A stretch of DNA of 34,444 bases from Citricoccus sp. CH26A (lineage in GTDB: Bacteria > Actinomycetota > Actinomycetes > Actinomycetales > Micrococcaceae), in NCBI RefSeq assembly GCF_000224415.1, contig NZ_AFXQ01000031.1:1-34444 (forward strand), read 5' to 3'. The notes under the pieces are model-generated. The model did not search any database and was not told the origin of the DNA. It saw only the letters and a program-made list of their open reading frames with translations. Shown here piece by piece: positions 16,751-20,439 of this stretch. Numbering within the stretch: position 1 is the stretch's first letter; every line of letters begins with the position of its first letter. A program made the translations under genes and the position numbers.

Positions 16751-17965
16751 TCAGAGACAGGCCGCGGCCTGGACCGCCGCACGGCGGCCGGCCCGGGTGG
16801 CGCCGATCGTGGAGGCCGACGCGCCGTAACCGACCAGGAACAGCCCGGGCATCTTCGCCACCGTCACGCCGTCCCGTTCCATCCGCACGCCTCCGCCGCG
16901 TTCACGGACATGCAGCGGGGACAGGTGATCCAGGGAGGCGCGGAACCCCGTGGCCCACAGGATCGTGTCCACCGGCGTCTCCCACGTGGTGAGCGGGTCC
17001 TCCGAGGACACGGCCGTGCAGGCCCGGCCGGTCAGTGCGGGCACCCGGTCCAACCCACCGGAGGCCGCGCCCCCGGGTGCCAGCAGGCGGTCGGCGACGT
17101 CGCCCTGGGAGGGGACCCGGCCACCGTCGGGTCCCGGCCCGTCCAGCACGGCGCCGCCGGGGGTGATGCGGCGCAGCGGCCCGCGACTGACGAGCACGCC
17201 CGCGGCGATCCCCGCCAGGTACTGCCCGGTGACGGGCAGGCCGGTGGCGGCGACCACGGACAGCGGCGGCAGGCCCATCGTGGTGCGGGCGGACACGGAG
17301 GACTCCACGTCCACGCCCCAGGAGGCGTCGAAGAACCGGTCCGTCCAGTCCGGGGCACGGCGCGTGGTCCAGACCGTGGTGGCGCCGGCCTCGTGCAGCT
17401 GCAGCAGGAACTGCAGGGCCGAGGTGCCACCGCCGACCACCAGCACGCTCCGGCCGGTGAAGTCCTCCGCCGCCGTGAAACCGCGCGTGTGCAGTTGACG
17501 GCCGGTGAACTCGGCGATGCCCGGGTAGTAGGGCACGTACGGGCTGTCCCAGGTGCCGGTCGCGTTGATCACGGTCCGGGCCCGCCATGTCCGGCCGTCG
17601 GCCGCGGTGACGGTGAAGACCCCCTGGAGGTGATCCACGCTCCGCACGTCCACCGGCCGGATCACGGGCAGCTCCAGCCGTTCCTCGTAGGCGCCGTAGT
17701 ACCGGGACACCACGTGACTGGCCGGTTCCCGGGGATCGGGCGTGCCCAGCGGCATCCCGGGCAGGTCGTGGATCCCGTGTGCGGCGTCGAAGGTCAGTGC
17801 GTCCCAGCGGTGCCGCCATGCCCCGCCCGGGCCGTCGTTGGCGTCCAGCACCACGAACCCGGTGCCGGGCTCCACCCGCTTGCGGAGCAGCTGCCCGGCC
17901 GCGCTCAGGCCGGCCTGGCCGGCTCCGATCACGACGACGTCGAGCAGCTCTTCGGTGGAGGTCAC
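16751..17965 (-). CDS. Flavin-containing monooxygenase-like NAD(P)-binding oxidoreductase
   Basis: A 404-residue flavoprotein of the CzcO/FMO-like group. The N-terminal FAD motif is [26 protein letters not shown] matches the conserved GG-x-W-x-x-R-W segment of such monooxygenases. The second dinucleotide motif is [14 protein letters not shown], and a TILWATGFR motif near the end resembles the FMO ATG signature. These proteins hydroxylate or oxidise soft nucleophiles or ketones using NADPH and O2; the substrate cannot be told from sequence. It starts with GTG at 17965, preceded 7 nt away by AATACT with GTGACG as a fair -35 (16-nt spacer). It is divergent from glyA, and the next gene downstream on this strand is the fur-like regulator. 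Confidence 0.85.
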
Positions 17966-17972
17966 GTCCCGC

Positions 17973-17978
17973 AGTATT
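17973..17978 (-). promoter_or_regulatory. -10 element, leaderless promoter of the monooxygenase-like gene
   Basis: AATACT on the minus strand ends 7 nt before the GTG start at 17965; GTGACG is a possible -35 with a 16-nt spacer. Confidence 0.55.
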
Positions 17979-18005
17979 GCAGGCGGTCAGCGCCCGTCAC
18001 CACGC

Positions 18006-18011
18006 TACGAT
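18006..18011 (+). promoter_or_regulatory. -10 element of glyA
   Basis: TACGAT predicts a transcription start at about 18018, immediately before the first stem of the glyA leader aptamer. The leader would be about 145 nt long. Confidence 0.6.
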
Positions 18012-18017
18012 GGGGCG

Positions 18018-18122
18018 CAGGCCGCGACTGGCGCAGGTGGACCACCACCGGGAAGCGGCGCTGCGTGGTGCCGACGCCGTCGGCCCCGACCGACGCCCGG
18101 ACCGCCCGCCTGGGTCCGGGCG
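18018..18122 (+). ncRNA. ZTP (pfl) riboswitch in the glyA leader
   Basis: The leader matches the ZTP/ZMP aptamer class known upstream of purine and one-carbon genes. P1 is GCCGC (18021-18025) with GCGGC (18055-18059). The conserved joining GACTGGCG follows P1. P2 is GGTGG (18036-18040) with CCACC (18045-18049), then GGGAAGC. After a variable hairpin (CCGAC-GCC-GTCGG, 18071-18083) comes the terminal CCGCCTGGG-like block (18106-18114). GGCG (18030-18033) can form the class-defining pseudoknot with CGCC (18107-18110). CGCCCGGAC (18094-18102) and GTCCGGGCG (18114-18122) form a 9-bp hairpin enclosing the pseudoknot strand, so ligand binding and this hairpin should be mutually exclusive. ZTP normally switches such genes on. 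The pattern was recognised by eye, not by a covariance search. Confidence 0.85.
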
Positions 18123-18162
18123 CCAGACCAGAAACCCCAGACCATGCCAGCAGGAGCTTCTC

Positions 18163-19458
18163 GTGACCCAGCCGAACACCACGACGTCCGCGTCCCTCAG
18201 CAACCGTCCCCTGACCGACGTCGACCCCGAGATCGCCGCCGTCCTGGACCAGGAGCTGGGCCGCCAGCGGGACACCCTGGAGATGATCGCGTCCGAGAAC
18301 TTCGTGCCGCGCGCCATCCTCGAGACCCAGGGCTCGGTGCTGACGAACAAGTACGCCGAGGGGTACCCCGGACGGCGGTACTACGGCGGTTGTGAGTACG
18401 TGGACGTGGCCGAGAACCTGGCGATCGAGCGCGCCAAGGCCCTCTTCGGCGCAGAGCACGTCAACGTCCAGCCGCACGCCGGCGCCCAGGCCAACGTGGC
18501 CCTGATGACCGCCCTCATGCAGCCCGGGGACACCCTGATGGGCCTGTCGCTGGCCCACGGCGGCCACCTGACCCACGGGATGAAGCTGAACTTCTCCGGC
18601 AAGAACTACACCATCGCGGCCTACGAGGTGGATCCGGACACCTACCGGATCGACATGGACAAGGTCCGCGAGAAGGCGGTCGAGGCCAAGCCGGCCGTCA
18701 TCGTGGCGGGCTGGTCCGCCTACTCCCGCCAGCTGGACTTCGAGGCGTTCCGCTCCATCGCGGACGAGGTGGGGGCCAAGCTCTGGGTGGACATGGCCCA
18801 CTTCGCCGGGCTGGTCGCCGCGGGACTGCACCCGAACCCGGTGCCCCACGCCGACGTCGTGACCTCCACCGCGCACAAGACGCTCGCCGGGCCCCGCTCG
18901 GGCTTCATCCTCTCCAAGGAGGAGTACCGCAAGAAGATCGACTCGGCGGTGTTCCCGGGCCAGCAGGGCGGCCCGCTGATGCACGCGATCGCCGGCAAGG
19001 CCGTGGCCTTCAAGATCGCCGCCTCCGAGGAGTTCGCCGAACGCCAGCGCCGCACCATCGAGGGCGCCCAGATCCTTGCCGAGCGCCTGATGGGGGCCGA
19101 CGTCGCCGAGCACGGGGTCTCCGTGCTGACCGGTGGCACCGACGTGCACCTGATCCTGGTGGACCTGCGCCACGCCGAGCTCGACGGCCGTCAGGCCGAG
19201 GACCTGCTCCACGAGGTCGGCATCACCGTCAACCGCAACTCCGTCCCGTGGGACCCACGCCCGCCGATGACCACCTCCGGCCTGCGCATCGGTACCCCGG
19301 CCCTGGCCACCCGCGGCTTCGGGGCCGAGGAGTTCGCCGAGGTGGCGGACATCGTCGCCCAGGCCCTCAAGCCGGGCCCGGACCTGGAGGCCCTGAAGGC
19401 CCGCGTGCAGAAGCTCGCCGCCGACTTCCCCCTGTACGAAGGCCTCGAGGGCTGGTGA
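18163..19458 (+). CDS. glyA: Serine hydroxymethyltransferase
   Basis: A 431-residue PLP enzyme interconverting serine and glycine with transfer of a one-carbon unit to tetrahydrofolate, the main source of 5,10-methylene-THF. Visible motifs are [10 protein letters not shown], the tight [20 protein letters not shown] segment, [12 protein letters not shown], and the PLP-lysine motif [36 protein letters not shown] is near the C terminus. Length fits the family. GTG at 18163 follows AGGAG 7 nt upstream. Expression is probably set by the ZTP riboswitch in the leader. folD follows 72 bp downstream on the same strand; both products work on the same folate pool and may be co-regulated. Confidence 0.97.
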
Positions 19459-19530: not shown

Positions 19531-20439
19531 ATGACCGCACAGAAGCTCGACGGCCGCGCCACGGCCGCCGCCATCAAGGAGGACCTCACCCGGCGCGTGG
19601 AGGTCCTGCGCGGACAGGGCATCGTGCCCGGTCTGGGCACCATCCTGGTCGGTGAGGACCCGGGGTCCCAGTCCTACGTGGGGGGCAAGCACCGCGACTG
19701 CGCCGAGGTGGGGGTGGCCTCCATCCGGAAGGACCTGCCCGCCTCGACCACCGAGGAGGAGCTCCTGGCCGTGGTCGAGGAACTCAACGCGGACGAGGCC
19801 TGCACCGGGTACATCGTGCAGTTGCCGCTGCCCAAGCACATCGACACCGACCGCATCCTCGAGGCGATCGACCCGGCCAAGGACGCCGACGGGCTGCATC
19901 CGATGAACCTGGGGCGCCTGGTGGCCTCGGTCGGCGGGGAGCTGGACTCGCCGCTGCCGTGCACGCCCAAGGGGTGCGTGGAGCTGCTGAAGCACTACGG
20001 CATCGACCTCAGCGGCAAGGTGGTCCTGGTGATCGGCCGTGGCGTGACCATCGGCCGTCCCGCCGGGCTCGTGCTGACCCGCCGGGACGTCAACGCCACC
20101 GTGGTGCTGGCCCACACCGGCACGAAGGACCTCAAGGCCGAACTGGCCCGCGCGGACGTCATCATCGCCGCGGCCGGGGTGGCCCACATGGTCAGGCCGG
20201 AGGACGTCAAGGACGGGGTGATCGTGCTGGACGTGGGTGTCTCCCGCGTCGAGGGCGAGGACGGCAAGGCCAGGATCACCGGTGACGTGGATCCCGGCGT
20301 GGCCGAGAAGGCGTCCTGGATGGCCCCCAACCCGGGCGGTGTCGGCCCGATGACCCGGGTGATGCTGCTGGCCAACGTGGTCGAGGCCGCCGAGCGCGCC
20401 GCGGCCGCCGACGGCTGGACGGAGCCCGAGCGGGGCTGA
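19531..20439 (+). CDS. folD: Bifunctional methylenetetrahydrofolate dehydrogenase/cyclohydrolase
   Basis: A 302-residue enzyme oxidising 5,10-methylene-THF to methenyl-THF with NADP and hydrolysing it to 10-formyl-THF. The substrate/catalytic motif is [12 protein letters not shown] with Tyr49 and catalytic Lys53. [35 protein letters not shown] (the actinobacterial form of the dinucleotide motif) and PGGVGPMT are all present. It uses the methylene-THF produced by GlyA just upstream, and its product is the substrate of PurU encoded 6 kb away. The 72-bp gap contains TAGATT around 19490, so a second promoter is possible. ATG at 19531 has a distant AAGGAAG. Confidence 0.97.

Follow-up and report, generated by a model that had tools for sequence, protein, structure and literature searches.

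A predicted ZTP riboswitch with a long linker upstream of glyA-folD in Citricoccus sp. CH26A

The 5′ leader of glyA-folD in Citricoccus sp. CH26A is very probably (probability about 0.93) a ZTP (ZMP/ZTP, pfl) riboswitch with the P1-linker-P3 layout set out below. It was found in the stretch of 34,444 nucleotides that was analysed as a whole and is called the window here. Judged by sequence, a complete ZTP (pfl) aptamer is located at window positions 18016-18122 and adjoins glyA-folD on the upstream side; its identity is firm on these grounds, the class being a known one, found here in its usual genomic place. The anatomy, conservation and gene context of the element were established in the present analysis. 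The ligand and the ON direction are those expected of the riboswitch class, whose validation is recounted in passages of PMC7266159, and the window RNA would bind ZMP/ZTP as a member of this class.

The downstream gene glyA, coding for serine hydroxymethyltransferase, starts with a GTG codon and occupies 18163-19458 of the + strand (NF000586, 594.4 bits vs a cut-off of 335); folD follows at 19531-20439 of the same strand (NF010789, 456.9 bits vs 401). The aptamer thus stands in front of purine/one-carbon folate genes, and a glyA/folD/purH-type gene set is known for pfl RNAs from the part of PMC2864571 that treats them. Among the 80 loci compared, from which near records may be absent, the closest GlyA is that of Kocuria rosea (81%).

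All aptamer elements lie on the + strand. The 5′ strand of P1 (18016-18025) consists of a core, GCCGC (18021-18025), and an outer part, CGCAG (18016-18020), whose pairs, by eye, are not kept in every member of the genus. The joint J1/2 (18026-18033) reads GACUGGCG (entered as GACTGGCG in the element list), and its GGCG (18030-18033) is the 5′ strand of the pseudoknot. The alignment places the P2 hairpin GUGG/CCAC at 18037-18048 (GTGG 18037-18040, CCAC 18045-18048), and the Rfam alignment and our alignment A1 place GGGAAGC (18050-18056) and the 3′ strand of P1 (core 18055-18059, outer part 18061-18065) at 18050-18065, so that P1-J1/2-P2, with the GACUGGCG joint and the GGGAAGC element, is present in full. 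A long linker (18066-18093) with an extra hairpin (18070-18075/18079-18084) leads to the 3′ stem-loop P3 (18094-18122), a stem of 10 bp (18094-18103/18113-18122) attested by the predicted fold, by a covariance model of ours (R1) and by covariation. The nine-nucleotide P3 loop (18104-18112) contains CGCC (18107-18110), the 3′ strand of the pseudoknot, which sits within CGCCTGGG (18107-18114); the CGCCUGGG of the window occupies these same positions, at the loop/stem edge of P3. A Shine-Dalgarno sequence, AGGAG, is found at 18152-18156. Every element listed in the earlier note on this DNA (TACGAT, P1, the joint, P2, GGGAAGC and CGCC) is in place, and its proposal of a ZTP aptamer ahead of glyA is borne out by the 42.4-bit R1 match described below and by the glyA start at 18163.

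From the closing element to NCGCCTGG, the linker measures 49 nucleotides in the window and 19-90 over 140 distinct leaders. The linker hairpin GCCGACGCCGUCGGC (18070-18084) itself includes CGCC; it is the same in genome G006 and differs in G003 only at the last base (C to U, which still pairs with G), while the sequence flanking it varies among the three. PMC7484762 describes significant variation among natural ZTP riboswitches in the region between P1 and P3, often with additional helices there, and the linker hairpin is accounted for as one of these.

The predicted -10 element, TACGAT (18006-18011, of the form TANNNT), was read directly from the letters and is locked to the aptamer. In all 140 distinct leaders, which share ancestry, so that the counts measure conservation and do not represent 140 independent events, a TANNNT ends 6-14 nucleotides before the P1 core (mean number in shuffled leaders 7.8, maximum 17). 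The gap is 6 nucleotides in 87 leaders, 7 in 35 and 9 in the window, and the element precedes P1 in 48/48 of the genome-contig subset. Within the genus, seven of the eight members have TACGAT and the eighth has TAGGAT. From TACGAT the earlier note had derived a start of transcription at the first base of the aptamer, and a -10 that puts the start close to the foot of P1 is supported.

The stem-loop at 18094-18122 had been read differently in the earlier note, as a 9-bp competing hairpin that traps the pseudoknot strand in its loop, so that hairpin and aptamer would exclude each other. The hairpin around the pseudoknot strand is real and appears in the predicted fold, with 10 bp in place of 9; the mutual exclusion fails, and the "competing hairpin" is the normal P3 of the aptamer. 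PMC10085676 describes P3 as a short 3′ stem-loop that is connected with P1-J1/2-P2 in two ways, through a variable linker and through an H-type pseudoknot between the P3-loop CGCC and J1/2; the Rfam consensus likewise has a P3 stem with a nine-base loop carrying CGCC. The window sequence GGACC[GCCCGCCUG]GGUCC matches this published layout, hence the equation of the hairpin with P3. Since the P3 stem and the pseudoknot use separate bases, base use imposes no exclusion. A competitor would explain why a stable hairpin holds the pseudoknot strand within its loop, but this hairpin occupies the P3 position both in the published architecture and in the Rfam consensus and covaries across 42 aptamers, which makes a trapping role extremely unlikely.

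Covariance searches with the ZTP (pfl) model, which the earlier note had proposed as a check, gave a divided answer. A scan of the full window with Rfam returned nothing above cut-off, and in a permissive scan of 17900-18300 RF01750 was the sole match at E values up to 10, with 30.6 bits (E 0.0024) vs a gathering cut-off of 39, a score that serves detection and describes no structural feature. In the RF01750 alignment P1, J1/2, P2 and GGGAAGC fit, but P3 is put on 18070-18084 and the consensus CGCCUGGG is for the most part missing; the true CGCCUGGG is located further 3′, at 18107-18114. The score thus falls under the cut-off because the linker hairpin is mistaken for P3. The independent model R1, made from alignment A2 of 35 aptamers of other genera with a hand-set structure, matched 18012-18128 of the window with 42.4 bits (E 2e-7; E 2.0e-5 genome-wide) and placed P3 pairs on 18099-18103/18113-18117; the next-best place in the 34-kb window reached 10.1 bits, and genome G000 has a single match.

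R1 gave a single match in every one of the eight genus members, with E values between 7.4e-8 and 4.0e-5, covering the full model in three, positions 10-85 in four and positions 10-50 only in G007, where the match is without P3 and P3 was read from a pattern search (locus L027). RF01750 reached E 0.001 in two of these eight genomes and its cut-off in one. In the family, R1 matched 98 of 149 genomes, part of the family having helped to train it, and RF01750 reached E 0.001 in 83/149 and its cut-off in 74/149; both family searches were run with stricter filters, at which some weak matches are lost. Long-linker aptamers are among those that score below the Rfam cut-off and are matched by R1.

Relatives of the aptamer were extracted by a pattern that set no condition on P1 or on the 5′ half of the P3 stem but required J1/2, both strands of P2, the closing element and also NCGCCTGG[GA]. 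In 119 loci it retrieved 75 aptamers, 72 of them distinct; it misses at least L006 and L014, both found by Rfam, and in the full set of loci also L169 and L203, found by model. Alignment A1 comprises 42 of the 72 distinct aptamers, a few rows having one misaligned P2 stretch, and none of the 35 in A2 is from the genus of the window. In A1, changes on both sides were seen in four of the five pairs of the P1 core (100% of cells paired), in one of four P2 pairs (96.4%) and in three of the five inner P3 pairs (88.6%). Two P3 pairs are unpaired in 10 and 12 of the 42 rows, and rows of the Arthrobacter type seem to have a bulge at these weakly paired positions. J1/2 is GACUGGCG or AACUGGCG in the 42 rows, as the pattern demanded, and P2 occurs as both GTGG/CCAC and ATGG/CCAT, its strands also being part of the pattern.

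Taken together, the 18 pairs have 96.0% of cells paired vs 91.5% in shuffles, and both-side changes in 8/18 pairs vs 3.4; neither value was reached in any of 500 shuffles, and the observed number of further pair types was reached in 3/500. When partners were slid, pairing fell from 96% to 35-43%; these controls keep the relatedness of the rows, which the shuffles lose. The J1/2 GGCG and the P3-loop CGCC are complementary in 42/42 rows; as the pseudoknot never varies it yields no covariation signal, and as it was moreover demanded by the pattern it gives no independent proof of its formation. Of the comparison across Micrococcales suggested in the earlier note, the part concerning P1 and P3 thus came out as covariation and the part concerning the pseudoknot as invariance.

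Over all loci, glyA is preceded by a pattern aptamer in 150 (with 140 distinct leaders among them) and lacks one in 45, and 10 have no glyA match. The 45 comprise second copies of glyA and relatives without ZTP aptamers, and also at least L006, L169 and L203, whose aptamers were found by model. In L002, L005 and L014, from other families of the order, the ZTP aptamer precedes purH (NF002049 over cut-off). In L153 (genus g37) it lies directly before a folD start (231 bits on a partial protein vs a cut-off of 401), and the same folD start follows the aptamer, by eye, in L154-L159 of this genus. An ArsO-like flavin monooxygenase is encoded divergently upstream in L153, as in the window, both below the model cut-off. 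L061, L063, L092 and L109 have 30-41 nucleotides between J1/2 and P2 vs 2-10 elsewhere, their aptamers being otherwise normal. Leaders of the Arthrobacter type (for example L052, L175, L189) were inspected by eye: some show a short U run 3′ of P3, and a recurrent GGTAGCCTGACC, perhaps another promoter or one arm of a hairpin, is found some 20-40 nucleotides before the Shine-Dalgarno sequence.

The fold energy of the window leader is ordinary vs shuffles (z -0.75, for a single sequence). Nine leaders, those of the eight genus members and of G008 from another genus, were folded without ligand or pseudoknot energy. The inner five pairs of P3 have probabilities of 0.96-1.0 in the window leader; P3 reaches at least 0.94 in five of the nine leaders, the window among them, and 0.09-0.14 in the other four (G001, G002, G004, G005). 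P1 has a probability of at most 0.04 in six of the nine (0.01 in the window).

The window aptamer shares with the ZMP/ZTP riboswitch (pfl, RF01750) P1, the GACUGGCG joint, P2, GGGAAGC, a variable linker, P3 with CGCCUGGG, the GGCG/CGCC pseudoknot and the position upstream of glyA-folD, and differs in its long linker with an extra hairpin, its 10-bp P3 and its Rfam score below cut-off. The same aptamer architecture is seen in the terminator-type pfl ZTP riboswitch of Clostridium beijerinckii, in which, according to PMC10085676, an invading strand opens P3 to form an intrinsic terminator. The window, in contrast, has no U tract there, as the earlier note had observed correctly: in 17900-18400 the + strand contains no terminator-like site, overlapping P3 or elsewhere, and the one such site is on the - strand, inside glyA. 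We therefore rejected an intrinsic terminator as the expression platform. With a stable P3 and no U tract, a terminator that forms when P3 is invaded is improbable, and control at the translation start or by Rho is more likely. Among the titles listed in searches of an open-access library, none dealt with the way in which ZTP riboswitches of Actinobacteria act on expression.

How the switch might act was considered in three forms. One tentative candidate, which we hold to be possible and well short of probable, is Rho-dependent attenuation, in which a C-rich, G-poor stretch after P3 and at the glyA start would be open to Rho in the ligand-free state. It is suggested by base composition, the 78-nucleotide stretches starting at 18130-18170 being in the top 1.4-2.7% of the window (both strands) for C minus G, and agrees with the + strand of 17900-18400 being free of terminator-like sites and with the fluoride riboswitches, another class, of which Actinomycetota have nearly no intrinsic-terminator variants according to PMC13273304; yet the richest C-over-G part falls within the start of the glyA coding region, and 40-nucleotide stretches of the leader after P3 are unremarkable (14-25%). 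A platform shared throughout the family, in which a CCAGGAG ribosome site would pair with the CCUGGG conserved in the P3 loop, is very improbable. CC does precede AGGAG in 46 of 88 distinct ZTP glyA contexts vs 20 of 109 other starts, a background that takes in open frames, some of them possibly not genes, but the same context was seen by eye in 12 of 40 ZTP-less glyA leaders of the family from genomes without an R1 match (L212-L214, L216, L217, L219, L231, L233, L236, L240, L244, L245). Complement scores were 13.48 for 137 ZTP leaders vs 12.62 shuffled and 12.73 vs 12.92 for ZTP-less leaders. We rejected the CCUGGG:CCAGG platform, the context being shared by ZTP-less leaders and the scores barely exceeding shuffles. 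With 22 genomic copies vs 20 of its reversed control, GCCAGCAGGAG is by itself no rare motif.

The most interesting lead, on mixed evidence, is a stretch complementary to J1/2 that adjoins the Shine-Dalgarno sequence (UGCCAGC-AGGAG, 18145-18156). On the ligand-free RNA, YGCCAG (18145-18150) would pair with J1/2 CUGGCG (18028-18033), break the pseudoknot and cover the ribosome site, which ligand binding would free; such a platform within the genus is rather unlikely. YGCCAG-C-AGGAG is found in seven of eight genus members (not in G004) and in G008, as UGCCAG in the window and G006 and as CGCCAG in five, with varying bases just 5′ of it; these leaders are, however, few and related. A strong J1/2 complement is present in the last 45 nucleotides before the start in 8/9 leaders vs 0.13 of shuffles, 3/37 ZTP-less glyA leaders (0.08) and 0.18 of 137 ZTP leaders, although a second CGCCAG directly 3′ of P3 adds to the score in L021, L022, L023 and L027. 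ZTP-less genus g14, near by GlyA identity, has a different ribosome site. The helix has a predicted probability of 0.63-0.96 in four of the nine leaders but at most 0.07 in four others, including the window, in whose predicted fold it is absent. Similarly, pairing between the ribosome site and the first 23 nucleotides beats at least 39 of 40 shuffled tails in G001, G002, G005 and G007 but is not clearly above them in the other five (window 11/40, G004 32/40).

Accessibility was compared in the nine leaders between the ensemble without ligand or pseudoknot and that with P1, P2 and P3 enforced. Against the YGCCAG platform, the Shine-Dalgarno sequence becomes less accessible in six of nine with the aptamer enforced (from 0.65 to 0.50 in the window). 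Accessibility of the spacer and start codon rises in seven of nine (window 0.07 to 0.37, most others by little), falls in G004 (0.54 to 0.36) and is unchanged in G008. The fold predicted for the window leader also pairs GGGAAGC (18050-18056) with GCUUCUC (18156-18162); seven contiguous pairs of this kind are found in L021, L022 and L023, and at most five in the other six leaders compared. It is doubtful that the ZTP aptamer of the genus controls translation by means of a duplicate of its own pseudoknot strand one base before the Shine-Dalgarno sequence; if it does, the same bases of J1/2 are contested between the ribosome site and the ligand pocket.

Whatever its platform, a ZTP riboswitch in this leader would work as follows. 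The transcript would begin near the foot of P1; the first part to fold would be P1-J1/2-P2, then the long linker with its spare hairpin, then P3, whose loop would pair with J1/2 and close the ligand pocket. A shortage of 10-formyl-THF would raise ZMP/ZTP, which would stabilise the pseudoknotted aptamer and lead to higher glyA-folD expression. The analysis removes a mistaken mechanism, the competing hairpin, and draws attention to the route by which a ZTP riboswitch of an actinobacterium may control expression when it has no intrinsic terminator. To a known riboswitch class it adds a long-linker form, which the Rfam model under-calls in this genus.
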